A stretch of 64,000 nt of DNA from an uncultured Tateyamaria sp. (lineage in GTDB: Bacteria; Pseudomonadota; Alphaproteobacteria; Rhodobacterales; Rhodobacteraceae). The number at the start of each line of letters is the position of its first letter. Position 1 is the first letter of the stretch. The stretch lies in NCBI RefSeq assembly GCF_947503385.1, contig NZ_CANNDO010000001.1, positions 992,001 through 1,056,000 on the forward strand, given 5' to 3'. The notes beneath the pieces are model-generated. The model did no database searches and was not told the DNA's origin. It saw nothing but the letters and a program-made list of their open reading frames with translations. Positions 24,532-62,233 of this stretch are shown piece after piece. A program made the translations under genes and the position numbers.

Positions 24532-24542
24532 GGGTGACTGCT

Positions 24543-36122: not shown

Positions 36123-37007
36123 GTGAAAGACAGCGCCTCGACCCATCACCACATTGACGGGCGCGCCATTGCCGCGCAAATCCTGAGGGACTGTCAGGCG
36201 TATGCACAAAGCGCGCAGCGGATCGGGCGGCTGATTTCGGTTTCCATCGGGGATGTGCCGGAGATCGAGGTATATGTTCGCAACCAGACGCGCGGTGCGG
36301 CCCGCGCGGGCCTGCCGTTCGAGACAGAGTTCTGGCCGGGCGATATCACGCAGGACGCGGCCAAGGCGCGCATTCAGGCGATGAATGACGATGCCGGGAC
36401 GTTGGGGATTATTCTGCAACGCCCGGTGCCCGCGCACATCAACCTGCGCTCGCTGCAATCGGCCATCCACCCGCTCAAGGATGTCGAGGGGATGAACCCT
36501 GCCTCCATCGGCAATATCGTCTATTCGGATGTGGCGCTGGCGCCGTGTACCGCTGCGGCCAGTGTCGCGTTGATCAAGTCGACGGGTTTGGACCTCAAAG
36601 GGACCGAGGTTGTGATGATTGGCCATTCCGAGATCGTGGGCAAACCCGCTGCCATGATGCTGATGGCCGAAGGGGCAACAGTGACCGTCTGTCATCACTT
36701 GACCCGGTCGGTTGCGATGCATTCACGCCGTGCCGATGTGGTGGTGGTCGCGGTTGGCATTCCCCATTTTCTGGGGCCGAATATGATCAAACCCGGTGCG
36801 GTGGTCATCGACATCGGGATCAACCAAGTTAAAGGCGCGGATGGCAGGCCCCGGATCGTCGGTGACGTGGATACCGATGCGGTGGGTGAGATTGCAGGGT
36901 GGATCACCCCGGTGCCGGGCGGCGTGGGTCCGGTCACGGTGGCGACCCTGATGCGCAACGCGACCGTGGCGCACCAGCGCCAGGTTGCCGCTGGATGGAT
37001 GGACTGA
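36123..37007 (+). CDS. folD: FolD-like methylene-THF dehydrogenase, catalytic residues altered
   Basis: The protein is 294 residues, GTG start with AGGAAG just upstream. Overall it is a FolD (5,10-methylene-THF dehydrogenase/cyclohydrolase): ILQRPVPAHIN, HPLKDVEGMNPASIGN, MIGHSEIVGKPAAMMLM and TPVPGGVGPVTVATLMRN are in place. However, the canonical Y-V-x-x-K catalytic lysine is Gln (EVYVRNQTRG), KDVDG is KDVEG, and the GRS and CHS residues near the cofactor phosphate are GHS and CHH. From family knowledge this predicts weak or no cyclohydrolase activity and possibly NAD rather than NADP use. It is followed 1 bp later by a GlxA-type regulator and by tdm. It probably oxidises the C1 units made by amine demethylation. 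Confidence 0.85.
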   Translation: MKDSASTHHHIDGRAIAAQILRDCQAYAQSAQRIGRLISVSIGDVPEIEVYVRNQTRGAARAGLPFETEFWPGDITQDAAKARIQAMNDDAGTLGIILQRPVPAHINLRSLQSAIHPLKDVEGMNPASIGNIVYSDVALAPCTAAASVALIKSTGLDLKGTEVVMIGHSEIVGKPAAMMLMAEGATVTVCHHLTRSVAMHSRRADVVVVAVGIPHFLGPNMIKPGAVVIDIGINQVKGADGRPRIVGDVDTDAVGEIAGWITPVPGGVGPVTVATLMRNATVAHQRQVAAGWMD

Positions 37008-37008
37008 C

Positions 37009-38025
37009 ATGGGCAAACAGCAAAACCGATTTGACGTGGCCGCCGCTGTGGCAGACCCGGCGCGGGCGCAGGTGGTCGAGATTTACGTAAGCAAGGGTTT
37101 TAGCGGGCTTGAGTTATCCTCTGTCACGCATGTGCTGGCCACGGCCAACGCGATATTGGCGCGGGATCTGTTTTCGTGGCGGTTCAGCACGGATGCACCC
37201 GGTTTTGTGACCAGCGATCAGGGGGCGCTGGTGCGTGGGGAACCGGCCATTGGTGACCACAGGCTGGCAGACATGATGGTCGTGGTTGGCGGTAAAAAGG
37301 CGGGCGGGAACACTTGGCTGCCGCGCGCACGCGCGATGCAGCGCAAGGCCCGCACAGTTGTGCTCTTGTCGGACGCGGCAACGGCGTACATCAGGGCGAC
37401 CAAAGCACCTGCGGGCCGGGTCACCACGCATTGGCGGGATGTGACGCAACTGGTCGAAACCGGATACCACCCACGTTTGACAACGCATCTGAGCGAGAAT
37501 TCGGATGGCATCATCACGTCCGCAGGGGCGGGTGCCACGCTGGAGCTGATGGTCGGCCTTGTCGCGCCGCACCTGACCAGCCCGCAAGTCGCAGAACTGG
37601 GCAATCACCTGCTGTTGCAGACCATCCGCAAAAGCGACGCAGAGCAACCCAAGTCCATCGCCGACAACGAAGGGCTGTTTGATGCAAGGTTGACCGAAGT
37701 GATCCGCCTGATGGAAGACACGGTAAACGAGCCGCTGTCGATGGACGACATCACCACCCGCGTGGGCGTTTCGACCCGGCATCTTGAGCGGGTCTTTCGT
37801 TCTGTGTTCAATGATACGCCCGCGCGGTTCTACAAGCGACTGCGTGTCAAGCGCGCGCGGGCCATGATCGAGGAATCGCTATTGCCGATGGTCGATATTG
37901 CAGTCGCCACCGGCTTTGGCTCCTGCACGACGATGGCAAAGGCGATCAAGGGCGAATACGGTGTCACGCCGTCCAAGATGCGCGAGCGCAAGAACCTGCA
38001 ACTGCTCACCTATGACGGGCGCTAG
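37009..38025 (+). CDS. GlxA-type AraC-family transcriptional regulator
   Basis: The protein is 338 residues, starting 1 bp after the folD stop (TGA-C-ATG). The N-terminal 200 residues are a DJ-1/PfpI-like domain (IYVSKGFSGLELSSVTHVLA, ADMMVVVGGKK) without a nucleophile cysteine at the usual place (VVLLSDAATAY). The C-terminal 100 residues are an AraC double helix-turn-helix (LSMDDITTRVGVSTRHLERV, FRSVFNDTPARFYKRLRVKR, VDIAVATGFGSCTTMAKAIK). Family members such as GbdR respond to methylated amines like glycine betaine or dimethylglycine. It probably controls the neighbouring folD and tdm genes; the ligand is not known. Confidence 0.9.
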   Translation: MGKQQNRFDVAAAVADPARAQVVEIYVSKGFSGLELSSVTHVLATANAILARDLFSWRFSTDAPGFVTSDQGALVRGEPAIGDHRLADMMVVVGGKKAGGNTWLPRARAMQRKARTVVLLSDAATAYIRATKAPAGRVTTHWRDVTQLVETGYHPRLTTHLSENSDGIITSAGAGATLELMVGLVAPHLTSPQVAELGNHLLLQTIRKSDAEQPKSIADNEGLFDARLTEVIRLMEDTVNEPLSMDDITTRVGVSTRHLERVFRSVFNDTPARFYKRLRVKRARAMIEESLLPMVDIAVATGFGSCTTMAKAIKGEYGVTPSKMRERKNLQLLTYDGR

Positions 38026-38867
38026 GCGGCCAGATACCCGATGGCCGCAAAAACCACGACGATCCCAAGCCATTGGGCACGCGCGACCGCTTCACCAAGA
38101 AAGACGGCGGCAAGGATGATGGTAAGCACGCCAAATGTCGACGCGGCGACGGCTGCAAAGGCGGGGTAGGCGTAGCCGCCCGCCAGCATCACCGCGCCGA
38201 TGGCGATTGCGTCCAGCACGCCCATGACAATCAGCACCGGCACAGCGCGGCGCACCGGCAACAGCGGCTGGCGCAGGGCCAGCGCGAGGGCAACTACCAC
38301 CGCGACCGCGCCAAAACGTGCCAGCGCAATTGCGGTCATCTCGGTGCCTTGGGCGATGGACAACTGGCCCAGTGCAAAGGACACGGCAAAGCCGATGGCG
38401 GCAAGTATGGACCAGACCACCGCTGACGCGCGCGGGCCCGTTGTGTCCCGGTCGACCGACGTCAAGGCAACCGCGCTGCACCCGGCGACGATCACAACCA
38501 CGGCCAACCATTGCCAGCCGGTCACAACCTGCCCGTTCGCCACGGCCCAGCCGACCGACAGGATGGGAAAGCTGGCGACGATGGGGGCGACAACCCGCAC
38601 TGGCCCGATCTTGAGCGCTTGATAAAAGCTGAGGCCAGTCAGGCCAAAGACAGCCCCGGACAGGAGGGCCAGCCACGTGGCATCCCCGCCGATCCGCGCG
38701 GTGTCCAGCGCAGGTGACAAAACGGCTGTCATCACGCAGCCGGTGACAAGAACCGGGAACAGGGAGGGAAACACGCCCACTTTCTGCGAGATGTACCGCA
38801 CCAGCGTGTCGTGCACGCCCCAGCAAAACGCAGCGATCAGGCCAAGGGTCAGCGCGCCCATGTGCAT
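38022..38867 (-). CDS. DMT-superfamily (EamA) transporter
   Basis: The protein is 281 residues from the ATG at 38867 (MHMGALTLGLIAAFCWGVHD); an in-frame ATG at 38915 would add 16 hydrophilic residues without a clear ribosome binding site. Ten hydrophobic segments form two EamA repeats (AFCWGVHDTLVRYISQKVG and AAIGFAVSFALGQLSIAQG). The end overlaps the convergent regulator gene by 4 bp. EamA proteins export metabolites such as amino acids; the substrate is unknown. Position between the regulator and tdm suggests a link to amine metabolism, but this is weak. Confidence 0.85.
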   Translation of the reverse strand: MHMGALTLGLIAAFCWGVHDTLVRYISQKVGVFPSLFPVLVTGCVMTAVLSPALDTARIGGDATWLALLSGAVFGLTGLSFYQALKIGPVRVVAPIVASFPILSVGWAVANGQVVTGWQWLAVVVIVAGCSAVALTSVDRDTTGPRASAVVWSILAAIGFAVSFALGQLSIAQGTEMTAIALARFGAVAVVVALALALRQPLLPVRRAVPVLIVMGVLDAIAIGAVMLAGGYAYPAFAAVAASTFGVLTIILAAVFLGEAVARAQWLGIVVVFAAIGYLAA

Positions 38868-38997
38868 TGCCCCGCCGTCTGGATTGTTTTTCTCACGCGG
38901 CGGTGTCCCTTTCATTTGCAGATTTGCCAGAGAGGAGTATTCTCACAGTTAAATTTTTATTCCGCTAGTGCAAATCCGCGCGGCGTGGGAGGCGATG

Positions 38998-41367
38998 ATG
39001 CTTGATGACCCCTATCCCAAGGTTCGGCCTGGCCCACCGCGCCCAAGCCAGATCATCCAGCCCGCGCAATTTTCGATGCCGCCCGGCACAGAACGCTACG
39101 TGGTGCAGGGCGGTGGCGCAGTCTTTATCCCCGTCGAAGCCGGAGATGGCCTCACGGTGATCAACGATGAGGGCGGGCAGGTGTGCGAGGTGGTCTGTGC
39201 AGATGCGCAGGGCCGGGCGGGCGACACTTTGCTTGATCGTCCGGTTGACGCATCTGCGGATGGCTTGCGTGCCTTATTGGCAGGCAGTGACCAGTCTTTG
39301 CGCGGATTTCGGATGGGGCTCGAAGCGCGCAAAATTGATCTCGCAGGGGCGCGCGCCATCCGTCTGTTCGATACGGACACCCGCGCCAAGGCCACAGAAG
39401 ACATGCGTGTCACCCGCGACGGCACCCTGATCATCGCGGCACCCGGCGACCCGATGGATGCAGAGGCGCAGAATACGACGACGCCGCTCACCGTCATGAT
39501 CCGGCGCGCCACGATCAAATCCCACGTCAAATTCGCGCTGCCCGATCCGCTGGCCGACCCGGTCGCCGACATTCGCGTGCACAGCCAGACTGCCGAAGCC
39601 TACTTTGTCAAAGCGGGTGACTATATCCAGATCATTGATGTGGATGGCCGACAATGCACGGATTTCGAATGCTTTTCCGCGCGCAAGCTGGACAAGGGCA
39701 TCGAACACGCGCTGGACGTGACCACGACGCGCACCCTGATGGGGCACGCATACCCCATGCCAGGCCTGCACGCGAAATACTACGATCAGGAGATGCTGCC
39801 GCTGGTCGAGGTGGTACAGGACACCTGCGGGCGTCACGATGCCTTTGCCTTGGCCTGCTCTGCCAAATATTACGACGACATCGGCTATCCCGGTCACGTT
39901 AACTGCTCTGAGAATTTCAACACCGCACTGGCCGAATTCAATGTGACAGGTCGGCCGGGTTGGATGGCCATCAACTTTTTCTTCAATACCTATCTGGACG
40001 AACACGGGGTCATGTACTCGGACGAACCGTGGTCGCGCCCCGGCGATTATGTCCTGCTGCGGGCGCTGACGGACATCGTCTGTGTGTCGTCGGCCTGTCC
40101 TGACGACACAACGGCGGCCAATGGCTGGAACCCGACCGACATCCACGTGCGCACCTATAGCGGGCGCGAGACATTCCAACGCAGTGTCGCCTATCGGCCC
40201 ACCCCTGATGCGGACCCCAAAATGACCAAACAAACCGCCTTTCACGACAGCTTTGCCAAACACACCCGCAACTTTGTCGAATACAACGGCTATTGGCTGG
40301 CCAACTGTTTTGCCGAAGCGGGCCCGATCGAGGAATACTGGGCCTGCCGCAAGCAAGCTGTAATCATGGACCTGTCGCCGCTGCGCAAGTTCGAGATCAC
40401 CGGCCCGGATGCAGAGGCGCTGTGCCAATACGTCTTTACCCGCAACATGAAGACGCTGGCCGTGGGCGGGGTGGTGTACACCGCGATGTGCTACGAACAT
40501 GGCGGCATGATCGACGACGGGACTGTCTTTCGGTTGGGCAAGGATAATTTCCGCTGGATCGGCGGCAATGATTACGGCGGCGAATGGCTGCGTGAACAGG
40601 CGGACAAGCTGGGGCTCAGGGTGTTGGTGCGGTCCTCCACCGACCAACTTCACAACGTCGCGGTGCAGGGACCGGAAAGCCGCGATCTTCTGCGCAAGAT
40701 TGTCTGGACCGCGCCGCACAACCCCGAATTCGACCAACTGGGCTGGTTCCGCTTTACGCCTGCGCGCCTCAACACCGAAAGCGGCACGCCCTTTGTCATC
40801 TCCCGCACCGGCTACACCGGCGAGTTGGGGTACGAGGTCATGTGTCACCCAAAGGATGCGGCTGAAATCTTTGACGCGATCTGGGATGCGGGGCAGGGGC
40901 ACGGACTGCGCCCGATGGGGCTCGAAGCGCTGGACATGGTGCGGATCGAAGCGGGGCTGATCTTTGCGGGTTACGATTTTTCTGACCAGACGGACCCGTT
41001 CGAAGCCGGGATCGGCTTTACTGTCCCGCTCAAGTCAAAAGAGGATGATTTTATTGGCCGCAATGCGCTGATCCGGCGCAAGGAACACCCAAGCCGCAAA
41101 ATGGTGGGCCTTGATATCGACAGCAACGTGGCGGTGGATCACGGCGATTGCATTCACATCGGACGCGCGCAAGTGGGCGAGGTCACGTCCTCCATGCGCT
41201 CGCCGCTGCTGGGCAAGAACATCGCCCTTGCGCGCATTGACGTGGCCCATGCCGAAATTGGCGCAGCGGTTGAGGTGGGCAAGCTTGACGGTCACCAAAA
41301 ACGTCTGCCAGCCGAAATCGTACCCTTCGCGCATTACGACCCGAAAAAGGAGCGGCCAAGATCATGA
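38998..41367 (+). CDS. tdm: Trimethylamine N-oxide demethylase (TMAO aldolase)
   Basis: The protein is 789 residues. I chose the ATG at 38998 (GGAGG 5 nt before) over 38995 and the GTG at 38968. The N-terminal half to about residue 380 is a DUF1989 domain with several cysteines (DGRQCTDFECFSARKL, VQDTCGRHDAFALACSAKYY, VSSACPDDTTAANGWNPTDI) that fit its known metal site. The C-terminal half (about 410-780) is a GcvT-type tetrahydrofolate domain (VMCHPKDAAEIF, VRIEAGLIFAGYDFSDQTDP, MVGLDIDSNVAVDHGD). This fusion and length match Tdm of Methylocella and Ruegeria, which splits TMAO into dimethylamine and formaldehyde, with THF as C1 acceptor. The neighbouring tmm supports the call. Two small secreted-protein genes follow by 4-bp overlaps. 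Confidence 0.92.
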   Translation: MLDDPYPKVRPGPPRPSQIIQPAQFSMPPGTERYVVQGGGAVFIPVEAGDGLTVINDEGGQVCEVVCADAQGRAGDTLLDRPVDASADGLRALLAGSDQSLRGFRMGLEARKIDLAGARAIRLFDTDTRAKATEDMRVTRDGTLIIAAPGDPMDAEAQNTTTPLTVMIRRATIKSHVKFALPDPLADPVADIRVHSQTAEAYFVKAGDYIQIIDVDGRQCTDFECFSARKLDKGIEHALDVTTTRTLMGHAYPMPGLHAKYYDQEMLPLVEVVQDTCGRHDAFALACSAKYYDDIGYPGHVNCSENFNTALAEFNVTGRPGWMAINFFFNTYLDEHGVMYSDEPWSRPGDYVLLRALTDIVCVSSACPDDTTAANGWNPTDIHVRTYSGRETFQRSVAYRPTPDADPKMTKQTAFHDSFAKHTRNFVEYNGYWLANCFAEAGPIEEYWACRKQAVIMDLSPLRKFEITGPDAEALCQYVFTRNMKTLAVGGVVYTAMCYEHGGMIDDGTVFRLGKDNFRWIGGNDYGGEWLREQADKLGLRVLVRSSTDQLHNVAVQGPESRDLLRKIVWTAPHNPEFDQLGWFRFTPARLNTESGTPFVISRTGYTGELGYEVMCHPKDAAEIFDAIWDAGQGHGLRPMGLEALDMVRIEAGLIFAGYDFSDQTDPFEAGIGFTVPLKSKEDDFIGRNALIRRKEHPSRKMVGLDIDSNVAVDHGDCIHIGRAQVGEVTSSMRSPLLGKNIALARIDVAHAEIGAAVEVGKLDGHQKRLPAEIVPFAHYDPKKERPRS

Positions 41368-41741: not shown

Positions 41742-42148
41742 TCCGCGCCGCCATTTTCGCTCTGCTCTGCGGGACGTCCGTCCATGCGGAAGCGTATTGT
41801 GCGGACCTGACCGCGCTCACCAACCACAGCGCCGGGACAATCACGCTGCCCGATGGCACGCCGGGCACCTGTGTCACCTCACTGGACCTGACGGGGGCGC
41901 GTGCGGCCAATTGCCGGTGGCCCTTTGAATACCGCGCCGAGGCGGCAACAACTGCATTTACGACTTTGCTGAACGCAACGACGCGCTGCCTGAATGCCAA
42001 TGGCGTTGCGGATCAGGGCGTCAACCACCCCGACAGCTACGACCTGCGCACGTTCGATACCGAAACGGCGCAGATCAGTGTCTCCATCAAAGACAAGGGC
42101 GCTTTGCAGCAGACCTATGTCTTTTTGCGGGTCGCGCCTGCCCCTTAG
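41738..42148 (+). CDS. Small secreted cysteine-containing hypothetical protein
   Basis: The protein is 136 residues, starting [20 protein letters not shown] at the ATG overlapping the previous stop by 4 bp. The signal peptide is followed by a mature part with four cysteines (AYCADL, GTCVTSL, ANCRWPF, TRCLNAN), which could form two disulfides in the periplasm. It ends convergent with tmm, overlapping by 4 bp. No family is recognised. Its place in the tdm operon suggests it may matter in TMAO metabolism. Confidence 0.75.
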
Positions 42149-43479
42149 TTTTGCAGATAGACTTCGAGGCTGTCATCCAGCGCATCCACCCACGGTGTGT
42201 GGTGGATGGGCGCCATCGACCCGGTCATCACGGACGCATAGCAATTGTCGCGGAACGTCATGATCCCTTGTTTCTTGTGGCCCTTCCATGCCTTGAACGC
42301 CTGACAGGCCCCTTCGACATCGAATGATGGATAATCCGTCTCTGCGATCAGTTCCTTGATGTAGTCGCCCTGATACCAGATCGCGTCATAGTCATCCTCT
42401 CCCGCATCCTCGCGGGCGATACGGTCCGCCACGTCGGCTTCCATCTCGGCCTTGGAGGGCAGCGCGATCTTGCCCATGATCGCGTCGCGCACCCACCATG
42501 CCTGCGCGTCAAACATGTTGAAGGTGAACCACTGGTCCTGCATCCCCAAATAGAAGAGCGCCGGATTGTCGACCCACGCAACGCCCTTAAAAAGGTCCGC
42601 CGTCGCCAGACGGTTGGCGGTTTTCAGGCGCAAATCTTCGGCCATAAAGGGGAAATGGTGCTGGTAGCCCGTGCACAGGATCACGGCGTCCACGTCGCGG
42701 CTGGTCCCATCCTTGAAATGCGCGGTCTTGCCGTCGACATGGGTCAGAAGCGGTACTTCCGCCCAATTGTCGGGCCAATCATATCCCATGGCAGCGGTCC
42801 GGTGTGACACCGTGATGGATTTTGCCCCGTATTTCCAACATTGCGAGCCGATATCTTCGGCGGAATAGCTGGTGCCGACGATCAGAATGTCCTGATCCTT
42901 GAATTCCAGCGCATCCCGGAAATCATGGGCGTGCAACACGCGGCCCTTGAAGCTTTCGAAGCCGGGAAATTCCGGCACGTTCGGGGTGGAGAAATGGCCC
43001 GACGCGCAGATCACGTGGTCAAAGGTTTCGGTGTATTCGCGGTCGTTCGGCAGGTCTTTGACCGTCACGCTAAACACACCGTCCTCGAACGTCACCCGGC
43101 GCACCGCGGTTTCAAAGCGAATCCAGTCGCGCACACCCGCCTTTTCGACCCGGCCCTGAATGTAGTCGAAGAGCACCGCGCGCGGTGGATAGGATGCGAT
43201 TTGCTTGCCGAAATGCTCTTCGAACGAATAGTCGGCAAATTCCAACCCCTCCTTGGGGCCATTGGACCACAAATACCGGTACATAGAGCCGTGTACCGGC
43301 TCGCCATATTGGTCCACGCCAGTGCGCCATGTGTAGTTCCACAAGCCGCCCCAGTTGGATTGCTTTTCAAAGCAGACGACCTCGGGGATGTCTGCGCCGT
43401 TCTTTTTGGCGGACTGGAACGCGCGGAGCTGCGCAAGGCCCGAAGGACCGGCCCCGATGATGGCGATACGTTTGGGCAT
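42145..43479 (-). CDS. tmm: Trimethylamine monooxygenase (bacterial FMO)
   Basis: The protein is 444 residues, close to the 445-450 usual for Tmm. It oxidises trimethylamine to TMAO using FAD, NADPH and O2 in the cytoplasm. FAD-binding [13 protein letters not shown] is at residue 9, the FMO signature is [11 protein letters not shown] (F-x-G-x3-H-x3-F), the NADPH-binding GTSYSAED is around residue 204, and [20 protein letters not shown] is characteristic of the roseobacter and Methylocella enzyme. AAGGAG precedes the ATG. It converges with the tdm operon and diverges from the small membrane-protein gene at 43636. Confidence 0.96.
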
Positions 43480-44046: not shown

Positions 44047-45381
44047 TCAGATATCGAGGGTGTTGTCCTTTTCCCATTGCGAGAAATGCGCAGTAAAATC
44101 GTTCCACTCCTGCGTCTTCATCTTGATGTAAGAGGCCGAGAATTCTTCGCCCATCGCCGCCTTCAGGCTCTTGTCTTTGTCATACTCGCGCAGGGCGTCC
44201 AGCATGTTGAGAGGCAGTTTGGGTGCGCCGCGCACTTTGTGACCGTCGGCATACATGTCGATGTCGTGCCGTTTTCCGGGGTCCGCCTTGCTGCGGATAC
44301 CGTCCAGCCCCGCCGCAATGATCACCGCCTGCAACAGATACGGGTTCGTCGCCCCGTCCGGCAGCCGCAACTCGAACCGGCCCGGGCCGGGGACCCGAAC
44401 CATATGCGTGCGGTTGTTGCCGGTCCACGTGACCGTGTTGGGCGCCCATGTGGCCCCTGACATGGTCCGTGGCGCGTTGATGCGCTTGTAGCTGTTGACC
44501 GTCGGGTTTGTGATCGCGGCCAGCGCGCTTGCGTGTTTCATGATCCCGCCCAAGAAATGACGGCCCTTTTCCGACAGGCCCAATTCGGCGGTCTGACTGC
44601 TGTCATTGGGTTCCATGGCGAAGACGTTGGTTTTGGCCTTCCCGCCAGGCGCGTCCCAGACAGAGATATGGGCGTGACATCCATTGCCCGTCAGTCCTTC
44701 GACCGGTTTGGGCATAAAGGTTGCGCGGAAGCCGTGTTTTTCGGCCACGCTTTTGGTCATGAACTTGAAGAACGAGTGCTTGTCAGCCGTGCGCAACGCG
44801 TCGTCAAATTCCCAGTTCATCTCGAACTGGCCATTCGCATCCTCGTGGTCATTCTGGTATGGTCCCCAGCCCAGATCGAGCATGTAGTCGCAAATCTCGC
44901 GCACCACATCGTAGCGGCGCATCACGGCCTGCTGGTCGTAGCAGGGCTTGGCCGCAGTGTCGTATTCGTCGCTGATCTGGTTGCCGTCGGGCGTCATGAG
45001 GAAGTATTCGGCCTCGATCCCGGTCTTGACGTGTAACCCTTCGGCGGCGGCTTCGTCGATCAGGCGCCGCAGCACGTTGCGGGGGGCTTGGGCGACATCC
45101 TCGCCTTCCATGACGCAATTGCCCGCGACCCACGCCACCTCGGGTTTCCACGGCAGTTGGATGACCGAGGACGGGTCCGGCACCGCCAGCATGTCCGGGT
45201 GCGCGGGCGTCATATCAAGCCACGTGGCAAAACCCGCAAACCCTGCGCCGTCTTCCTGCATCTCCGCAATCGCTTGGGCGGGCACCAGTTTCGCCCGCTG
45301 ACCGCCAAAGAGGTCGGTGAAAGAAATCATGAAGTACTTTACACCGTTGTCAGCGGCGAACTTTGCAAGATCAGTGGTCAT
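44047..45381 (-). CDS. gmaS: Gamma-glutamylmethylamide synthetase
   Basis: The protein is 444 residues, start MTTDLAKFAADNGVKYFMIS with AGGA before it. It is a glutamine-synthetase-type ligase: GIEAEYFLM (metal Glu), NDHEDANGQFEMNW, GNGCHAHISVWD, NSYKRINAPRTMSGATWAPN, and GRFELRLPDGATNPYLLQAV with the active-site Arg residues. The GmaS subgroup joins methylamine to glutamate with ATP, the first step of the N-methylglutamate pathway. The gene follows mgsABC in the same direction and the whole pathway is present in the window, which makes plain glutamine synthetase unlikely. Confidence 0.95.
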   Translation of the reverse strand: MTTDLAKFAADNGVKYFMISFTDLFGGQRAKLVPAQAIAEMQEDGAGFAGFATWLDMTPAHPDMLAVPDPSSVIQLPWKPEVAWVAGNCVMEGEDVAQAPRNVLRRLIDEAAAEGLHVKTGIEAEYFLMTPDGNQISDEYDTAAKPCYDQQAVMRRYDVVREICDYMLDLGWGPYQNDHEDANGQFEMNWEFDDALRTADKHSFFKFMTKSVAEKHGFRATFMPKPVEGLTGNGCHAHISVWDAPGGKAKTNVFAMEPNDSSQTAELGLSEKGRHFLGGIMKHASALAAITNPTVNSYKRINAPRTMSGATWAPNTVTWTGNNRTHMVRVPGPGRFELRLPDGATNPYLLQAVIIAAGLDGIRSKADPGKRHDIDMYADGHKVRGAPKLPLNMLDALREYDKDKSLKAAMGEEFSASYIKMKTQEWNDFTAHFSQWEKDNTLDI

Positions 45382-45411
45382 CTGTCTGTTCCTGTTGGTC
45401 TTTATGTGATG

Positions 45412-45439
45412 AGGGCGCGTGCCGTGATGGCCGCGCCCT
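45412..45439 (-). other. Hairpin between mgsC and gmaS
   Basis: AGGGCGCG (45412-45419) and CGCGCCCT (45432-45439) form an 8-bp stem, extended by GCC with GGC inside the loop. It lies in the 70-bp gap after mgsC. It may partly terminate transcription or protect the mgs message. The run after it on the minus strand is not T-rich. Confidence 0.5.
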
Positions 45440-45451
45440 TCGTTGTGGTGA

Positions 45452-46795
45452 TCAATATGCGGTGCCGGGCTTGCCGGGGTACCAGTCAGTGCCAGCAAGC
45501 GGGATCTTGGCCATTGCCGCGGCCTCCAGCGTCAGGGCACAGAGGTCCTCGGGTTCGAGATTGTGCAGGTGGTTCTTGCCGCAGGCCCGCGCGATGGTCT
45601 GCGCCTCCAGCGTCATCACCTTGAGGTAATTGTTGAGCCGCCGCCCCCCCTCGATCGGGTCAAAGCGTTTCATCAACTCGGGGTCCTGCGTGGTGATGCC
45701 GGCGGGGTCTTGCCCCTCGTGCCAGTCGTCATAGGCACCTGCGGTGGTGCCGAGCGCGTTATACTCGGCCTCCCATTTCGGGTCGTTGTCGCCCAAGGCG
45801 ATCAGGGCAGCCGTGCCGATGGCGACCGCGTCCGCGCCAAGGGCCATGGCTTTGGCCACATCCGCACCCGTACGGATGCCACCAGACACGACAAGCTGCA
45901 CCTCGCGGTGCATGTCGAGGTCTTGCAGCGCGCGCACCGCTTCGCGGATACAGGCCAGAATAGGCTGGCCCACATGTTCGATGAACACGTCCTGCGTGGC
46001 CGCCGTGCCGCCTTGCATCCCGTCGAGCACAACCACATCCGCGCCCGCCTTAACGGCAAGCGTGGTGTCAAAATAGGGCCGTGCACCGCCGACCTTGATG
46101 TAGATCGGCTTTTCCCAATTGGTGATCTCGCGCAATTCAAGGATCTTGATTTCCAGATCGTCGGGTCCGGTCCAGTCGGGGTGCCGACAGGCCGACCGCT
46201 GGTCGATCCCTTTGGGCAGGTTGCGCATTTCGGCGACGCGGTCGCTGATTTTCTGACCCAAGAGCATACCGCCGCCGCCGGGTTTCGCGCCTTGGCCCAC
46301 AACAATCTCGATGGCGTCGCAGCGGCGCAGATCATCCGGGTTCATACCATAGCGCGATGGCAGGTATTGGTAGACCAGCTTGTTGGAATGGCCGCGTTCC
46401 TCTTCGGTCATGCCGCCATCGCCGGTGGTGGTTGATGTGCCTGCCATGGTGGCGCCACGGCCCAATGCTTCCTTGGCACCACCCGACAGCGCACCAAAGG
46501 ACATGCCCGCAATGGTCACAGGAATATCCAGCTTGATCGGGTTTTTGGCAAAGCGGGTGCCCAGTGTCACGTTGGTGTCGCACCGCTCGCGATATCCTTC
46601 GAGCGGATAGCGCGACATGGACGCACCCAAAAACAGCAGATCGTCGAAATGGGGCAGCTTGCGTTTGGCGCCGCCGCCGCGAATGTCATAGATGCCCGTC
46701 GCCGCCGCGCGCCGGATTTCGGCATTCACCGGGTTCGAAAAGGTGGCCGACTGGATCGGCATCGTGCGCGGTGCGCCCTTTTGCTCGTCTTTCAT
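45452..46795 (-). CDS. mgsC: N-methylglutamate synthase subunit C (glutamate-synthase-like FMN domain)
   Basis: The protein is 447 residues, start MKDEQKGAPRTMPIQSATFS. It corresponds to the FMN and Fe-S synthase domain of glutamate synthase: PVTIAGMSFGALSGGAKEAL, TGDGGMTEEER, GQGAKPGGGGMLLGQKIS, VLDGMQGGTAATQDVFIEHV, and VSGGIRTGADVAKAMALGAD (phosphate-binding). With MgsA and MgsB it converts gamma-glutamylmethylamide and 2-oxoglutarate to N-methylglutamate. It starts 10 bp after mgsB and precedes gmaS. Confidence 0.95.
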   Translation of the reverse strand: MKDEQKGAPRTMPIQSATFSNPVNAEIRRAAATGIYDIRGGGAKRKLPHFDDLLFLGASMSRYPLEGYRERCDTNVTLGTRFAKNPIKLDIPVTIAGMSFGALSGGAKEALGRGATMAGTSTTTGDGGMTEEERGHSNKLVYQYLPSRYGMNPDDLRRCDAIEIVVGQGAKPGGGGMLLGQKISDRVAEMRNLPKGIDQRSACRHPDWTGPDDLEIKILELREITNWEKPIYIKVGGARPYFDTTLAVKAGADVVVLDGMQGGTAATQDVFIEHVGQPILACIREAVRALQDLDMHREVQLVVSGGIRTGADVAKAMALGADAVAIGTAALIALGDNDPKWEAEYNALGTTAGAYDDWHEGQDPAGITTQDPELMKRFDPIEGGRRLNNYLKVMTLEAQTIARACGKNHLHNLEPEDLCALTLEAAAMAKIPLAGTDWYPGKPGTAY

Positions 46796-50370: not shown

Positions 50371-51522
50371 ATGGCCATTCTATGGAGAACCTCGGCGCTT
50401 GCCAGCCGCCACGCAGAGATCGGCGGCGAGTTGGAAGACTGGAATGGTATGGGCACCGCGTGGTTCTACGACCATACACCGGAACGTGCCAAAGCGGATT
50501 ATGAGGCAATCCGCACCAAGGCGGGCCTGATGGATGTGTCCGGTCTGAAAAAAGTGCATGTCGTGGGCGAAGACGCTGCCTATGTGATCGACCGGGTCAC
50601 AACGCGCAACGTGGAAAAGATCGCACCGGGCCGCGCTGTGTATGCCTGCATGTTGGATGACCGCGGATTGTTTGTGGACGATTGTGTGATCTACCACATC
50701 GCCGTTAATTCGTGGCTCGTCGTGCACGGCACCGGCACCGGGATGGAGCAACTGACCACCGTGGCCGCGGCCAAAAATTGTTCGGTGATCATGGATGACG
50801 ATCTGCACGACATGTCGTTGCAAGGCCCCAAGGCGGTCGACATCTTGGCCAAGGACATCCCCGCGATCCGCGATCTGGCCTATTTCGGGATCATGCAAAC
50901 GCGCCTTTATGGCCGCGACGTGATGATCTCGCGCACGGGCTACACCGGCGAGCGTGGCTACGAGATTTTCTGCCGTGCCAAGGATGCGGTGCATATCTGG
51001 GACAATGTGTTGGAGGCCGGCGGCGACGACGTGCGCCCGACGCAGTTCTCCACCCTCGATATGCTGCGGATTGAGTCGTACCTGCTGTTCTACCCCGGTG
51101 ACAACTCCGAGACCTTCCCGTTTGCGGATGGAACGCCCGCGGGCGACAGCCTTTGGGAACTGGGCCTCGACTTTACCGTGTCCCCGGGCAAGGAAGGCTT
51201 TATCGGGTCCGAAAACCACTACGCCATGAAGGGCAAGGAACGGTTCAAGATCTATGGCGTAAAGCTTGAGGGCGACGCCATGGACCAGATGGAAATGTTT
51301 GCCCGGGTGCATCACGAGGGCAAGGATGTGGGTGTCATCACCTACGGCCTGTCCTCGGAACTGAACGGCTATTCGGTGGCAATTGCGCGGCTCGACCCGT
51401 CCGTGGCGGTGCCCGGCACCAAGGTGACTGTTGTGCAGCCCGATGGCACTGAACTGGCTGCAACCGCGGAAGAGATGCCGTTCTATGACAAGGACAAGTC
51501 GATCCGCACCGCCAAGGGCTGA
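50371..51522 (+). CDS. dmmD: Dimethylamine monooxygenase operon GcvT-like THF protein
   Basis: The protein is 383 residues, start MAILWRTSALASRHAEIGGE with AGGG upstream. It is a GcvT-family tetrahydrofolate-binding protein: VDRVTTRNV, YACMLDDRGLFVDDCVIYHI, SLQGPKAVDILAKD, ISRTGYTGERGYEIFC, LDMLRIESYLLFYPGD and KEGFIGSENHY. In roseobacters DmmD is encoded first in dmmDABC and is thought to pass the C1 unit released from dimethylamine to THF. A strong hairpin separates it from dmmA. Confidence 0.9.
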   Translation: MAILWRTSALASRHAEIGGELEDWNGMGTAWFYDHTPERAKADYEAIRTKAGLMDVSGLKKVHVVGEDAAYVIDRVTTRNVEKIAPGRAVYACMLDDRGLFVDDCVIYHIAVNSWLVVHGTGTGMEQLTTVAAAKNCSVIMDDDLHDMSLQGPKAVDILAKDIPAIRDLAYFGIMQTRLYGRDVMISRTGYTGERGYEIFCRAKDAVHIWDNVLEAGGDDVRPTQFSTLDMLRIESYLLFYPGDNSETFPFADGTPAGDSLWELGLDFTVSPGKEGFIGSENHYAMKGKERFKIYGVKLEGDAMDQMEMFARVHHEGKDVGVITYGLSSELNGYSVAIARLDPSVAVPGTKVTVVQPDGTELAATAEEMPFYDKDKSIRTAKG

Positions 51523-51528
51523 ATTTTC

Positions 51529-51561
51529 AAAGGGCGCTGGTGCAGACACCAGCGCCCTTTT
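51529..51561 (+). terminator. Strong hairpin between dmmD and dmmA (terminator/attenuator)
   Basis: AAAGGGCGCTGGTG and CACCAGCGCCCTTT form a perfect 14-bp stem with a 4-nt loop (CAGA), 6 bp after the dmmD stop and ending in Ts. It has the form of an intrinsic terminator lying inside the operon, so it may lower dmmABC expression relative to dmmD. Confidence 0.75.
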
Positions 51562-51579
51562 CACGTGACGAGGACAGGT

Positions 51580-52176
51580 ATGTCGAAATTCGAATTTCCC
51601 CCGTCGATCAAGAGCAGGCCCGTCTACGGCACGCTTGAGGCGCGTCAGGGCAAGGCGCATCTGATGATCGCGGATGCCGAAGGGGCCGAGGCGATCCTGC
51701 GCATCGCGACCCCCGATCTGATGGCCAAGACCCACATCATCTACATCCCGCGCGGCGCGGGTTTTGCCGATCAGCTGCGCGCATTGAACCCGGCGCAGTT
51801 CTACGAGGGCCCAAGCTATGCCGCGTCGGTGCAGCGCATTCGCCGCGTCTTGCAGGATGCGCATATGGGGTTGCAGGTGTACCTGACCGGGACCGAAGGA
51901 CTGATGGGGCAGGCCCAGAACGAGGCGATGCAGGCGGGTATTCCGCACACGGCCATTCAGACCGAACATCGCGGCTCCGTTGCCCGCCGGATGCAGTGCG
52001 TGCACTGCAAGGGCATCACCGAAGACGTGGAAACCGACCCGTTTCAATGCAGCCATTGCGGGCTGAACCTGTTTGTGCGCGACCACTATTCGCGCCGTCT
52101 GGCCGCCTATCAGGGGGTCTGCATCGACGCCGAAGATCCGGGCAATGTGCCCGCACCGAAGGGGATCTATGAATGA
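51580..52176 (+). CDS. dmmA: Dimethylamine monooxygenase subunit A
   Basis: The protein is 198 residues from MSKFEFPPSIKSRPVYGTLE (GAGGACA before the ATG). The N-terminal 125 residues look alpha/beta (LRIATPDLMAKTHIIYIPRG, MGLQVYLTGTEGLMGQAQNE). The C-terminal 60 residues hold CVHCKGITEDVETDPFQCSH and CGLNLFVRDHYSRRLAAYQG, i.e. two CxxC-type pairs of a rubredoxin or zinc-ribbon fold, probably an iron or zinc site for electron transfer. It overlaps dmmB by 4 bp. The assignment rests on operon order and on dmmB and dmmC being clear. Confidence 0.88.
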   Translation: MSKFEFPPSIKSRPVYGTLEARQGKAHLMIADAEGAEAILRIATPDLMAKTHIIYIPRGAGFADQLRALNPAQFYEGPSYAASVQRIRRVLQDAHMGLQVYLTGTEGLMGQAQNEAMQAGIPHTAIQTEHRGSVARRMQCVHCKGITEDVETDPFQCSHCGLNLFVRDHYSRRLAAYQGVCIDAEDPGNVPAPKGIYE

Positions 52177-53156
52177 GCGCCGCCCCACAAAAAGCCAAGC
52201 CCGGCGCGGAAAAGATCGAGGTTGTCGTGTCTGCTGTCGTGCCTCTGAATGATCTGGTGACACGGTTCGAATTTCAACGCCGTGACGGCGCCCCGTTTCC
52301 GCCGTTTTCGGGCGGGGCACATACGGTTGTCACCATGGAAGACGGCGACGGGACCCGCCTGAATCCCTATTCGCTGATGTCCGACCCGGCGGATCTGAGC
52401 ACCTATGCCATTTCTGTGCGCCGTGATGACGCTGGCCGGGGCGGTTCGCTTTTTATGCACCGCAACGTGTCGGTGGGTGACGCCATGACGATCACCTATC
52501 CCGTCAACCTGTTCTCGCTTGATCTGCGGGCGCGCAAACATGTGTTTCTCGCCGGTGGCATCGGCATCACCCCGTTCATGTCCATGATCGCGCAACTGGA
52601 ACGTCAAGGCGGCGCGTGGGAGCTGCATTATGCCTGCCGCACCGAGACGCTTGGGACCTATGTCGACGTGCTGACCTACAAGCACCCCAACAAGGTTCAT
52701 GTGTATTACGACGACCAGAGCGATGCGATTGATCTGGAACGTCTGCTGGACGGGCAACCCTTGGGCACGCACGCTTATGTTTGCGGCCCCAAGGGCATGA
52801 TCGACTGGGTGCACGCGACCGCCTCGGCTGCGGGGTGGCCAGATGCCAATGTGCATTCCGAAGAGTTTCTGGCCCCAGAGCCGGGCGTTCCCTTCCAGGT
52901 TCGGCTGTGCAAGTCCGACAAGACGATCACAGTGGGCGAACACGAAAGCCTGCTGGAAGCGATTGAGCGGGTCGGGGTCGAGGCCCCCTTCCTGTGCCGT
53001 GGCGGGTCGTGCGGGCAGTGCGAGACAGATGTCGTCACCCATAACGGTGAATTCGTGCACCGCGATCACTGGCTGGACGAAGACCAACATGCCAGCGGGG
53101 ACAAGATCATGCCCTGCGTCAGCCGCTTTATCGGGACATTGGAGCTTGAACGATGA
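52173..53156 (+). CDS. dmmB: Dimethylamine monooxygenase reductase subunit
   Basis: The protein is 327 residues with the phthalate-dioxygenase-reductase layout. Flavin-binding motif LNPYSLMSDPADL (R/N-x-Y-S-L) is near residue 62, NAD-binding GGIGITPFMSMIAQLERQGG near 129, and a C-terminal plant-type [2Fe-2S] ferredoxin has CRGGSCGQC (C-x4-C-x2-C) with a final Cys in KIMPCVSR. It passes electrons from NAD(P)H to the oxygenase subunit DmmC. The start overlaps dmmA by 4 bp and the end overlaps dmmC by 4 bp. Confidence 0.93.
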   Translation: MSAAPQKAKPGAEKIEVVVSAVVPLNDLVTRFEFQRRDGAPFPPFSGGAHTVVTMEDGDGTRLNPYSLMSDPADLSTYAISVRRDDAGRGGSLFMHRNVSVGDAMTITYPVNLFSLDLRARKHVFLAGGIGITPFMSMIAQLERQGGAWELHYACRTETLGTYVDVLTYKHPNKVHVYYDDQSDAIDLERLLDGQPLGTHAYVCGPKGMIDWVHATASAAGWPDANVHSEEFLAPEPGVPFQVRLCKSDKTITVGEHESLLEAIERVGVEAPFLCRGGSCGQCETDVVTHNGEFVHRDHWLDEDQHASGDKIMPCVSRFIGTLELER

Positions 53157-54220
53157 CCATTCAGTTTAACGACGAGACGTTCCGCGACGACTATTCGTTC
53201 CACAACTCGGACTGGGCGATCAAACGCTTTCCGTTTCCGTTCCACGAAGACAGCTACATGTACGCGGTCAACATGGAACAGCACCGCGGCGGGCCCGAAG
53301 GGTCGGTTTATGAAAAACGGTTCGATGTGGACGAGCATTACGTGTCCGAGATGCGGGACCGGGCGATGGTGCTGGCGGACGATCCGCTGCGCTGTCAGTC
53401 GCTGCCGCATATGACGCTTGCGGGCTGGGACCTGCTGGAACTGATCATGGTGTCCAAATCGGAGGACTACCCGGACCTGTTCGAGTTGCACCGCGATGGC
53501 GACACATGGCGCTGGGTGAACAAGCCGCTAGGCATTGACGATACGTTCACGTTCCTCGATGACACAACGCTGCCCTACGGGCCGATGGAATACATCACCC
53601 GCCAGACCCAAGGCGATTTCTGTGTGCTGGATCAGCGTGACGGCAACCTGTGGATGGACGCCGGGATGGTGACGACGCAGGCGGACTGGAGCCTTGATTT
53701 CGACATCGGCATGAACTTTTTCGAATGGCACGCACCGGTGCCGCTGGCCCATGAAAAAGGGATCTTTGTCCGCGCGCTGAAATTTCTGCTCAACATCCAG
53801 CAGGGCGCGCCTGCACGGCGGCTCAATTGGACGATGACGGTCAACCCGCTGCTGGATACCAGTCCGGAAAACTATCACAAATGGGGTATCCAAAAGACGA
53901 CGCTGACACCCGAGAACATCGGCGCGAAACAGCATCTGCGGGTCGAATTGCAGACATTCTTTCGTCTGCCACGCTCTAACGGTCTGGTGTTCCCGATCCG
54001 CTGCTACCTGTGCAGCTTTCAGGATCTGATGACGATGCCGAAATGGGGGCGTCGCCTGCACCGTGTGGTGCGCGATCTGCCCGTCGAACTGGCCACATAC
54101 AAAGGGTTCATCGACAACCGTCCGATGATGCTTGATTACCTGTCACAGTTCGATGACGGGCTGCCCACATCGCCCGGTGTCTGGCCCGATCTAGAGACCG
54201 AGCCGCCCCTGTCCCGGTGA
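53153..54220 (+). CDS. dmmC: Dimethylamine monooxygenase subunit C (DUF3445, haem-dependent oxidative demethylase)
   Basis: The protein is 355 residues and belongs to the DUF3445 / haem-dependent oxidative N-demethylase family. Conserved segments are FPFPFHEDSYMYAVNMEQ near the start, MTLAGWDLLELIMVSKSEDY, QRDGNLWMDAGMVTTQADWS, FEWHAPVPLAHEKGIF, RLNWTMTVNPLLDTSPEN and LRVELQTFFRLPRSNGLVFP. It is the catalytic subunit that oxidises dimethylamine to methylamine plus formaldehyde. Last gene of dmmDABC; its stop is adjacent to the convergent stop of the XRE-cupin regulator. Confidence 0.93.
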   Translation: MTIQFNDETFRDDYSFHNSDWAIKRFPFPFHEDSYMYAVNMEQHRGGPEGSVYEKRFDVDEHYVSEMRDRAMVLADDPLRCQSLPHMTLAGWDLLELIMVSKSEDYPDLFELHRDGDTWRWVNKPLGIDDTFTFLDDTTLPYGPMEYITRQTQGDFCVLDQRDGNLWMDAGMVTTQADWSLDFDIGMNFFEWHAPVPLAHEKGIFVRALKFLLNIQQGAPARRLNWTMTVNPLLDTSPENYHKWGIQKTTLTPENIGAKQHLRVELQTFFRLPRSNGLVFPIRCYLCSFQDLMTMPKWGRRLHRVVRDLPVELATYKGFIDNRPMMLDYLSQFDDGLPTSPGVWPDLETEPPLSR

Positions 54221-54877: not shown

Positions 54878-54993
54878 AACGCGCGCTTTCTATGCAGCCA
54901 TGCCCAGGGAAACAATTCGGTTCTGGGCGAAACTGAGCCACCATAAGACGGATTTTTCCCTTGAGAACGCAAAAGTTGAACCAGAGTGAAAAA

Positions 54994-55974: not shown

Positions 55975-56543
55975 GCGACGGACGTCATCGCCGTCGTCAC
56001 CGCATGATGCAGAGACCCGGCGGACGCACGGGGGCCCATGATCCGCACCAGCCGGTCCGGTTCGATGCAGGTTACCAAACAGCCCAGATGATGGATCGAT
56101 GTGCGCGTGCTGTCGCCCGCCGCAAACTGCAAAAGGTTGATATTGCAGAGCAACTCCAGCACCGCATTCACACCCGCCCCGGACAGATCAAAGCACACCC
56201 AGGCGTCCGTCTGTTCCGTCACAGATGCGCAGCGGCCAAACCGTGACGAAACCTGCGCCGCAATATCTTCGTGGGTGGCGAAATCGGCAGAGATCATCCA
56301 CTGGTCCGGCCCGATCCACAGCGCCGAAAAAGGATCGCCAAACACCGCCTTGCCCGCAGCCGGTGCATCTGCGCCCAGCATGTCCCGCAGCTTCGCGCCG
56401 CACGCCGTTTCCTGACCCGCCCGCGCCGCGACAGAGGCGAGGGCGATATCGGGCAGTTCGGTCAGCGTCGTGTCGCCGATGGTGTCGACGTGCGCTGTGG
56501 TGCCACCAAGGGCGGTGATGGGGATCAGATCATGCACGGACAC
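55971..56543 (-). CDS. mgdD: N-methylglutamate dehydrogenase subunit D (SoxG-like)
   Basis: The protein is 190 residues with a GTG start overlapping mgdC by 14 bp; a second GTG at 56537 has better spacing from AGGAG and is equally possible. It is homologous to the gamma subunit of heterotetrameric sarcosine oxidase: FGDPFSALWIGPDQWMISAD, SVTEQTDAWVCFDLSGAGVN, TSIHHLGCLVTCIEPDRLVR. In the mgd context it is the fourth subunit of N-methylglutamate dehydrogenase, which turns N-methylglutamate into glutamate and a C1 unit on THF. Confidence 0.9.
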   Translation of the reverse strand: MSVHDLIPITALGGTTAHVDTIGDTTLTELPDIALASVAARAGQETACGAKLRDMLGADAPAAGKAVFGDPFSALWIGPDQWMISADFATHEDIAAQVSSRFGRCASVTEQTDAWVCFDLSGAGVNAVLELLCNINLLQFAAGDSTRTSIHHLGCLVTCIEPDRLVRIMGPRASAGSLHHAVTTAMTSVA

Positions 56544-59475: not shown

Positions 59476-59744
59476 GTCCGTGCCCCCACCGTGCGGGCCA
59501 GTTCGACCGCCGTGATCTCGTGCGTGGTGGTGTTGCGCGTGACGATCAGGATCGACCGGTCGCCACCTTCGTGAAACCACAACTCGCGGTGCGGTCCTGC
59601 CGGGTTGTCGCGCAAGTATCCATAGTCGTGCCACTCTTCGGCTGTAGCGGTGTCCGGGTCGGGGCGGTCCATCAGTGTCGCCGCACCAAGATAGACAAAT
59701 TCAGCGCTGTCGCGTGGACCAAGCAAAGGGTGATTGATGATCAT
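59472..59744 (-). CDS. mgdB: N-methylglutamate dehydrogenase subunit B (SoxD-like, no zinc cysteines)
   Basis: The protein is 90 residues, begins MIINHPLLGPRDSAEFVYLG and contains RPDPDTATAEEWHDYGYLRD and HRELWFHEGGDRSILIVTRN. This matches the delta subunit of sarcosine oxidase in layout. Sarcosine oxidase SoxD has a CPxCG motif and a downstream His/Cys pair that bind zinc; here there are no cysteines at all (HPLLGPR in place of CPxCGPR). That fits MgdB rather than SoxD. It overlaps mgdC by 4 bp and follows mgdA after 10 bp. Confidence 0.9.
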   Translation of the reverse strand: MIINHPLLGPRDSAEFVYLGAATLMDRPDPDTATAEEWHDYGYLRDNPAGPHRELWFHEGGDRSILIVTRNTTTHEITAVELARTVGART

Positions 59745-59754
59745 GTGCGGCCCC

Positions 59755-61005
59755 TCAATGCAGGTTGGGCTGATTGCCCATCCCTTTTTCGTCGATCATG
59801 TGACCGGTGCGGAACCGGTCAAAACGATAGGCGGTTGCGGTCTCGTGCGGTTCATCCCGGGCGAGCAGATGCGCAAAGGCGTAGCCAGAGGCGGGCGTGG
59901 CCTTGAACCCGCCATAGCACCAGCCGCCGTTGAAATAGAGCCCGTCGATATGGGTCCGGTCGATGATGGGCGAGCCGTCCATGCTCATGTCCATGATCCC
60001 GCCCCACATGCGCAACAGGCGCGCCCGTCCGATCATGGGCATGATGGCCATGCCGCCCTCGCAGACATCCTCGACAACCGGCAGGTTGCCGCGTTGGGCG
60101 TAGGAGTTGTAGCCGTCGATGTCGCCTCCGAAGACGAGTCCGCCCTTGTCGGATTGCGACACATAGAAATGGCCCGCGCCAAAGGTGATGACGCCCGGCA
60201 AGACCGGCTTCAGCCCTTCGGAGACAAAGGCCTGCAGGACGTGCGATTCAATGGGCAGGCGCATCCCGGCCTTGGCCATGAGGCGACTGGAATTGCCCGC
60301 AACTGCACAGCCCACGCGGCCTGCGCCAATAAACCCCTTGGACGTTTCGACACCAAGGCATGTGCCGTCTTCGATGCGAAAACCGATGACTTCGCAGTTC
60401 TGAATGATGTCGACGCCACGGCTGTCTGCGGCGCGCGCGTACCCCCATGCCACTGCATCGTGGCGTACCGTGCCGCCGCGCCGCTGCGCCAGCCCCCCTT
60501 TGATGGGGAACCGCGCATCATCAAAGTTCAGAAACGGATACTCCAGCCGGATCTGCGCCTCGGACAGCAGTTCGGCATCGGCACCGTTCAGGATCATGGC
60601 GTTGCCGCGCCGGATGAATGCATCGCGCTGCGCGTCGGAGTGGATCAGATTCATGATCCCACGCTGGGACACCATCGCGTTGTAATTCAGGTCCTGTTCC
60701 AGACCCTCCCACAGCTTTAGGGAAAACTCATAAAACGGCTCATTTCCGTCCAGCAGATAGTTCGAGCGGATGATGGTCGTGTTGCGCCCGACATTGCCGC
60801 CGCCGATCCAGCCTTTTTCGATTACCGCAACGCGCCGTTCTCCGTAGACCGACGCAAGATAGTGCGCGGTGGCCAGTCCGTGTCCGCCGCCGCCGATGAT
60901 GACGATGTCATATTGCGCTTGCGGCTCGGGATCGCGCCACGCTTGCGTCCAGCCTTTGTGGCCTGTGAGCGCCTCTTTTATGACCTTGAATCCGGAATAT
61001 CGCAT
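59755..61005 (-). CDS. mgdA: N-methylglutamate dehydrogenase subunit A (SoxB-like flavoprotein)
   Basis: The protein is 416 residues, start MRYSGFKVIKEALTGHKGWT with AGGAGG upstream. It is the FAD/FMN-containing oxidase subunit: IVIIGGGGHGLATAHYLASV (dinucleotide fold), GWIGGGNVGRNTTIIRSNYL (flavin-linkage region), HDAVAWGYARAADSRGVDII and FNGGWCYGGFKATPASGYAF at the end. SoxB and MgdA share this pattern; gmaS and mgsABC in the same window make MgdA the better name. It opens the mgdABCD operon and diverges from tmoX. Confidence 0.93.
   Translation of the reverse strand: MRYSGFKVIKEALTGHKGWTQAWRDPEPQAQYDIVIIGGGGHGLATAHYLASVYGERRVAVIEKGWIGGGNVGRNTTIIRSNYLLDGNEPFYEFSLKLWEGLEQDLNYNAMVSQRGIMNLIHSDAQRDAFIRRGNAMILNGADAELLSEAQIRLEYPFLNFDDARFPIKGGLAQRRGGTVRHDAVAWGYARAADSRGVDIIQNCEVIGFRIEDGTCLGVETSKGFIGAGRVGCAVAGNSSRLMAKAGMRLPIESHVLQAFVSEGLKPVLPGVITFGAGHFYVSQSDKGGLVFGGDIDGYNSYAQRGNLPVVEDVCEGGMAIMPMIGRARLLRMWGGIMDMSMDGSPIIDRTHIDGLYFNGGWCYGGFKATPASGYAFAHLLARDEPHETATAYRFDRFRTGHMIDEKGMGNQPNLH

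Positions 61006-62233
<1,228 letters not shown>

Follow-up and report, generated by a model that had tools for sequence, protein, structure and literature searches.

Yeast Mtd1 (PDB 1edz), a FolD relative without the catalytic lysine, is a monofunctional NAD-dependent methylene-H4F dehydrogenase. For the bifunctional human enzyme seven residues are reported as key to substrate binding and catalysis, Tyr52, Lys56, Gln100, Leu101, Asp125, Gly273 and Gly276, and the 2'-phosphate of NADP is held by the trio Arg173-His196-Ser197 (PMC3368264). Leu101 is described as contacting the ligand through its backbone oxygen (PMC11387627). A salt bridge between Asp121 and Arg234 is reported for the P. aeruginosa FolD (PMC3338484), and mutation of D121 in E. 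coli FolD is reported to lower kcat/Km to 0.17% (PMC6443876). The first-pass annotation of the locus described here had stated that the lysine is needed for cyclohydrolase activity and that dehydrogenase activity survives its loss. This agrees with what is reported for E. coli FolD K54N, which has about 19% of the dehydrogenase left and undetectable cyclohydrolase, the cyclohydrolase step being one that can also proceed spontaneously (PMC5688156). The human K56E mutant likewise is reported to work still as a dehydrogenase, although its Km is higher (PMC9173628). In R. pomeroyi on glycine betaine, H4F-linked C1 oxidation via Fhs is described as giving needed reducing power and ATP (PMC4744692), and the same H4F-linked scheme, with a folD, is described for SAR11 (PMC3160333).

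The window we analyzed is a stretch of 64,000 nucleotides from an uncultured Tateyamaria sp., and it carries at 36123..37007 (+) an open frame with a GTG start for a FolD paralogue of 294 aa without Lys54, here called FolDQ. Both FolD domains were found above cut-off (PF00763, 78.7 bits; PF02882, 191.1 bits). Thirty NCBIfam models match at 0.001; among the 25 listed none is above its cut-off, and the best score among these is 259.4 bits against a cut-off of 411. The protein is 34% identical to the canonical FolD of its own genome and 35% to E. coli FolD, and the named loci closest to it (87% and 83%, among the best 80 of 527 relatives) lie on contigs of uncultured Tateyamaria. The AlphaFold2 model has a mean pLDDT of 89.3 (64.1 to 89.3 over five models), with values below 50 at residues 1-6 and 130-136, the latter stretch overlapping a subfamily-specific motif, and all 50 PDB structure matches listed for the model are FolD/MTHFD. 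A pseudogene was considered and rejected, as the frame is open and dN/dS was 0.009 to 0.083 in nine pairs. Selection on FolDQ is purifying: the window gene against three relatives gave 0.047 to 0.083 at a dS of 1.2 to 2.2, near saturation, and six other pairs gave 0.009 to 0.046.

FolD-like ORFs were collected from 167 loci (225 sequences, 185 distinct) and joined with P0001 and E. coli FolD to 187 rows, of which three partial ones (two from L015, one from L077) were excluded, so that 184 rows were counted. The E. coli reference sequence agreed with PDB 1b0a, with no difference across 288 residues. Residue 54 is Q in 120 rows and K in 64; the distinct Q genes number at most 119, because P0001 and L003 are one gene. 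These sets are not random, as Q rows were sought using the window protein and K rows are mostly other FolDs of the same genomes together with the best non-Q matches of a phylum sample. In a tree of the 184 rows made by a quick method, one branch parts the Q set from the K set (SH-aLRT 100), and very long branches join the two. Q54 was also present at all loci of the best 80 of 527 relatives, three of them via rows identical to ones already counted; canonical FolDs are possibly among the 527, and the named loci, being the best 80, lean to clade A (see below).

FolDQ is carried by 34 of 248 genomes of the family, which were sampled at nearly one per genus. G079 gave no reading at position 54 and G190 was read only in part. 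We name two clades in this analysis, A (14 carriers, at least 66% identity) and B (20 carriers, 55-59%). The carriers belong to the class Alphaproteobacteria, and in a sample of 398 genomes of the phylum matches above 300 bits were found in 15, each from the own genome, family or class by its label; none of the 398 gave such a match under the label of same phylum only. FolDQ was found as well on two, possibly mis-binned, MAG contigs that bear the titles Gammaproteobacteria and Woeseiaceae (L085, L065). In one genome from a different family of the same class it stands alone (L177:9135-11673), beside ORFs that we take to resemble glcF and glcE.

The replacement of the catalytic lysine by Gln that the first-pass annotation had read from the motif YVRNQ was confirmed, and its KDVEG, GHS and CHH were likewise found as claimed. 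Residues Y51-V-R-N-Q55 of FolDQ align without a gap on Y50-V-A-S-K54 of E. coli, which places Gln55 (codon CAG, 36285..36287, +) at Lys54, and Q stands there in 120/120 subfamily rows. A lysine shifted to a nearby position was ruled out, since no Q row has a gap or insert at positions 46-64. Among the 120 Q rows Lys is absent from positions 46-51, 53 and 54 and occurs once at 52; at 55, 56 or 57 it is found in 8 to 12 rows, and E. coli also has Lys at 56.

The human residues were mapped by motif to E. coli positions 50, 54, 98, 99 and 121, and the 2'-phosphate trio to 167/190/191. FolDQ alters three of the seven key human residues, the Lys, the Leu and the Asp. Arg100 (codon CGC, 36420..36422, +) takes the place of Leu99, the human Leu101 of the substrate site, a further change that the first-pass annotation did not mention; Arg at 99 is found in 120/120 Q rows and in 0/64 K rows. 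Glu122 (codon GAG, 36486..36488, +) takes the place of Asp121, the pterin-binding carboxylate, so that the carboxylate is retained. This D121E change is found in 119/120 Q rows, the exception being L107 with Ala. Five more changes separate all 120 Q rows from the K rows (V38S, S65F, L96I, F123M and G145A), while P143A is found in 119/120 and N169E in 110/120. Arg234 is present in 64/64 K rows and in 18 of the 120 Q rows, the rest of which have Gln (89), Ser (8) or His (5); with its loss in 102/120, both partners of the Asp121-Arg234 salt bridge are mostly altered in the Q set. Arg52 is present in 119/120 Q rows. Invariant in 120/120 are Tyr50, Gln98, Lys118, Asp119, Gly122, Thr142, Ser168, Ile170, His190, Ala209, Gly231, Ile232, Gly261 and Gly262. 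The recurrence of one substitution set in all or nearly all of the 120 Q rows is far beyond chance.

By analogy with E. coli K54N, FolDQ has very probably lost cyclohydrolase activity. From its conserved residues we consider it rather likely that the protein acts as a dehydrogenase on methylene-H4F, and we give about an even chance to the full reading, in which FolDQ would be a catabolic methylene-H4F dehydrogenase without cyclohydrolase. What the dehydrogenase-only reading explains least is the rebuilt pterin site. The pocket is remodelled past Lys54 (L99R, D121E, F123M, P143A, G145A and the loss of R234), which is more than a plain loss of cyclohydrolase requires. The drop in kcat/Km reported for E. 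coli FolD mutated at D121 (PMC6443876) also counts against this reading, although Glu still offers a carboxylate.

Possibly, the pocket has been repurposed, with the FolD fold and the nicotinamide cofactor kept and another C1-folate, pterin or reaction handled, since the substrate site is rebuilt (V38S, L99R, D121E, F123M, P143A, G145A, R234Q). The first six of these changes are fixed jointly in 119 to 120 of 120 rows, and at 234 the Q rows have Q (89), S (8), H (5) or R (18). In addition, the window protein is equally far from its own canonical FolD (34%) and from that of E. coli (35%), and a very long branch leads to the subfamily. However, Tyr50, Gln98 and the carboxylate at 121 are retained, and the neighbours Tdm, gcv-like (L180) and fhs-folD make or use methylene-H4F and fit the ordinary substrate. 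A repurposed pocket is unlikely in our judgement. The fixed substrate-side changes (L99R, D121E, V38S, F123M, P143A, G145A and mostly R234Q) could also mean that FolDQ has a new activity on the FolD fold and uses another C1 carrier or C1-folate form in methylated amine and betaine oxidation, where canonical FolD, encoded in the same operon, would carry out a distinct step beside it. We hold this version to be quite unlikely. An enzyme that is still bifunctional, with Arg99, Arg52 or Gln54 together with Gln98 replacing Lys54 in cyclohydrolase action, would fit the invariance of Arg99, which lies beside Gln98 in the substrate site; yet arginine is a poor general base, a canonical FolD is retained alongside FolDQ, and we find the idea distinctly improbable. 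The undetectable cyclohydrolase reported for E. coli K54N (PMC5688156) also argues against it.

At the cofactor site, two of the three residues corresponding to the 2'-phosphate trio are changed. His168 (codon CAT, 36624..36626, +) stands at human Arg173 and is H in 120/120 rows, and His192 (codon CAC, 36696..36698, +) stands at human Ser197, E. coli Arg191, and is H in 119/120 (one X), the human numbering being by motif. Compared with the K rows these are R/A167H and S/R/K191H. The equivalent of His196 is kept in FolDQ, as are the other mapped cofactor contacts. In the human and Leishmania enzymes the Arg and the Ser bind the NADP 2'-phosphate, and the first-pass annotation had taken their replacement as a sign of a perhaps NAD-linked enzyme. 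The replacement itself stands, but Arg and Ser are not universal at these sites, because E. coli FolD, with GAS and THR, has Ala and Arg in their place and still uses NADP; the own canonical FolD has GRS and AHS. The two histidines hint, weakly, at a preference of FolDQ for NAD, a proposal that may well go either way.

A separate, normal FolD was expected elsewhere in the genome, and it was found. The own genome has two PF00763 matches, FolDQ and a canonical FolD at G000:C2:902521-902868, the latter near Fhs with one ORF in between. A PF00763 match besides FolDQ was present in 38/40 genomes (the 34 carriers and 6 behind named loci), so FolDQ usually occurs alongside a canonical FolD. FolDQ as the only FolD was considered for the remaining two, G153 and G190, and rejected: FolDQ lies at the contig start in both and Fhs is missing too, which makes an assembly break likelier. 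In G190 both PF00763 matches are parts of FolDQ itself, and in G002 the two matches other than FolDQ are fragments of 44 profile positions, one at a contig end. In all three genomes FolDQ thus lies at or near a contig end and Fhs, canonical folD or both are absent or truncated, a pattern such as would arise if duplicated, nearly identical fhs-folD blocks had broken the assemblies. Presence of Fhs was uninformative as a marker of carriers, since 231/248 genomes have FTHFS. No match to a separate cyclohydrolase FchA (FTCD_C, PF04961) was found in the own genome, and its two matches to PurU (TIGR00655) are both under cut-off.

Canonical folD lies within about 1.3 kb of FolDQ in 19/20 clade B carriers and in 4/14 clade A carriers. 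Among the loci of the best 80 of 527 relatives it is directly upstream of FolDQ in 18, with gaps between the matches of 0 to 65 bases. In clade B, locus L175 has fhs, a small ORF, folDQ and folDK in this order, and by their coordinates L172 and L176 are arranged alike. This adjacency in clade B and in the 18 loci would suit a weakly active or inactive FolDQ that pairs with canonical FolD as heterodimer or regulator, but that is the most doubtful of the alternatives, as the invariant cofactor-binding residues and most catalytic ones would be needless in an inactive partner, and the own genome, like 5 further clade A carriers, has the two genes far apart or on different contigs.

In the window, FolDQ is followed by a GlxA-type AraC-family regulator (37009..38025, +) whose ATG lies 1 base past the FolDQ stop codon. 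The coupling to GlxA proposed in the first-pass annotation is thus seen here, but the link is local: such a regulator stands beside FolDQ in only 7/80 loci (best 80 of 527). Next come an EamA-family permease (38022..38915, -), which perhaps moves a methylated amine or C1 product, and trimethylamine N-oxide demethylase (Tdm; 38968..41367, +; NF053776, 1228.5 bits, cut-off 1100). A small ORF after tdm (41364-41741, +) is conserved in 15/80 loci (best 80 of 527). Trimethylamine monooxygenase (Tmm) is encoded at 42145..43479 (-; NF058570, 835.8 bits, cut-off 675), and a glutamine synthetase type III-like gene at 44047..45498 (-; TIGR03105, 663 bits, cut-off 469.6), which by its context we take to be GmaS. 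Four ORFs at 50371..54220 (+; 50371-51522, 51565-52176, 52173-53156 and 53153-54220) are by their place presumably dmmDABC; the last matched no NCBIfam model at 1e-20. SoxA-/SoxB-family genes at 56530..61125 (-; TIGR01372, 1305.7 bits, and TIGR01373, 679.8 bits, both above cut-off) are, judging by context, presumably subunits of N-methylglutamate dehydrogenase. With a ProV-like ATPase also in the cluster, the gene labels cover the whole pathway from TMA to methylamine. A second GlxA-type regulator (54961-55974, +), 24% identical to the FolDQ-adjacent one, lies between the dmm-like and sox-like genes, the same spot that is reported for R. pomeroyi TmaR, between dmm and sox-type genes (PMC13390433).

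Two further features were observed in this genome. At 12343-24528 (+) the window has a single open frame of 4062 aa and, after it, another of 1154 aa at 24471-27932. A second Tdm-like protein at G000:C4:163975-166212 scores 1017.4 bits, under the Tdm cut-off of 1100, and is among 17 listed matches of this kind with 987 to 1066 bits.

Across the family, Tdm above cut-off was found in 57/248 genomes, 20/34 carriers versus 37/214 non-carriers (Fisher p = 1e-6, uncorrected for kinship). In clade A the association is with 11/14 carriers versus 46/234 other genomes (p = 9e-6, uncorrected for kinship) and in clade B Tdm is present in 9/20 carriers (p = 0.02, uncorrected for kinship). The surroundings of FolDQ were searched by tblastn with named queries, because choosing ORFs by length was misleading in GC-rich loci. 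Among the loci of the best 80 of 527 relatives, Tdm of at least 60% identity is in the flank of 27, both Tdm and canonical folD are found at 5, and neither is in the flank at 40, many upstream flanks being short. These 40 loci count against the catabolic dehydrogenase. The EamA permease is in the flank of 23 of the 80 and lies between FolDQ and tdm in 21. Locus L180 has the order gcvT-, gcvH- and gcvP-like ORFs, folDQ, EamA, tdm; the gcv-like labels are in part presumptive. No single conserved neighbour of FolDQ was found among 20 neighbour proteins scanned, which include a formate dehydrogenase-like protein, a BCCT transporter, a Rieske oxygenase, GDPD, FKBP and a fatty acid desaturase, and some immediate neighbours are without an evident C1 role. 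In L063 a bacterial-like globin gene (8085-8543) lies 21 bases past FolDQ, with relatives in 19 other loci. The role in handling C1 units from TMAO and dimethylamine put forward in the first-pass annotation is in line with the tdm association but proved too narrow, since the subfamily is also found within fhs-folD operons and near other genes where no tdm is in view, and the tdm, fhs-folD and gcv-like contexts tie FolDQ to sources and sinks of methylene-H4F and not to TMAO alone.

We infer for FolDQ an active dehydrogenase, its substrate and cofactor, and a hand-over to canonical FolD, as follows. Methylene-H4F would be supplied by Tdm, N-methylglutamate dehydrogenase, glycine cleavage and related demethylases, and FolDQ would oxidise it to methenyl-H4F, reducing NAD(P)+, more likely NAD+. 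The methenyl-H4F would then leave FolDQ, and canonical FolD, often the next gene, or spontaneous opening would convert it to 10-formyl-H4F. Reverse Fhs and formate dehydrogenase would complete the oxidation to CO2, giving ATP and NADH. In view of the H4F-linked C1 oxidation described for R. pomeroyi and SAR11, it is economical to read FolDQ as a dehydrogenase dedicated to supplying that route. If FolDQ is indeed dehydrogenase-only and NAD-linked, this would explain how methyl groups are turned into energy without draining the NADPH-linked folate pool.

FolDQ, a very divergent second FolD, occurs in many Alphaproteobacteria, both marine and soil ones, often near genes for methylated-amine degradation. 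Relatives of 74% identity (residue 54 unread) are annotated as bifunctional in two plasmid records (H1, H3); public annotation thus says bifunctional although FolDQ lacks the lysine on which one of the two activities depends in E. coli. We found no description of the subfamily among the top results of a search of open-licence literature, which cannot separate 'folD' from 'fold'. Compared with bifunctional FolD/MTHFD (E. coli 1b0a, H. pylori 6ape, human MTHFD1 and MTHFD2), FolDQ shares the fold, with a TM of 0.82 to 0.90 by query length among the 50 matches listed, both Pfam domains, Tyr50, Gln98, the glycine loops and the cofactor loop. It differs from them by Gln54, Arg99 and Glu121, by His at two of the three 2'-phosphate residues, and by the lack of an NCBIfam model above cut-off among the 25 of 30 listed. 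Yeast Mtd1 is a remote relative: among 27 PDB matches to the subfamily profile 1edz ranks last (2e-17, the best being 1.1e-77), so any resemblance of FolDQ to Mtd1 would be convergent. The carolacton-resistant K54N of E. coli FolD resembles FolDQ in the loss of Lys54 and is reported to keep dehydrogenase in part (PMC5688156), but it is a single laboratory mutation, whereas FolDQ forms a subfamily in which the change is fixed and the site rebuilt. Taken together, the family itself is already known, and by its sequences the Lys54-less FolDQ appears as a deep, conserved subfamily within it.
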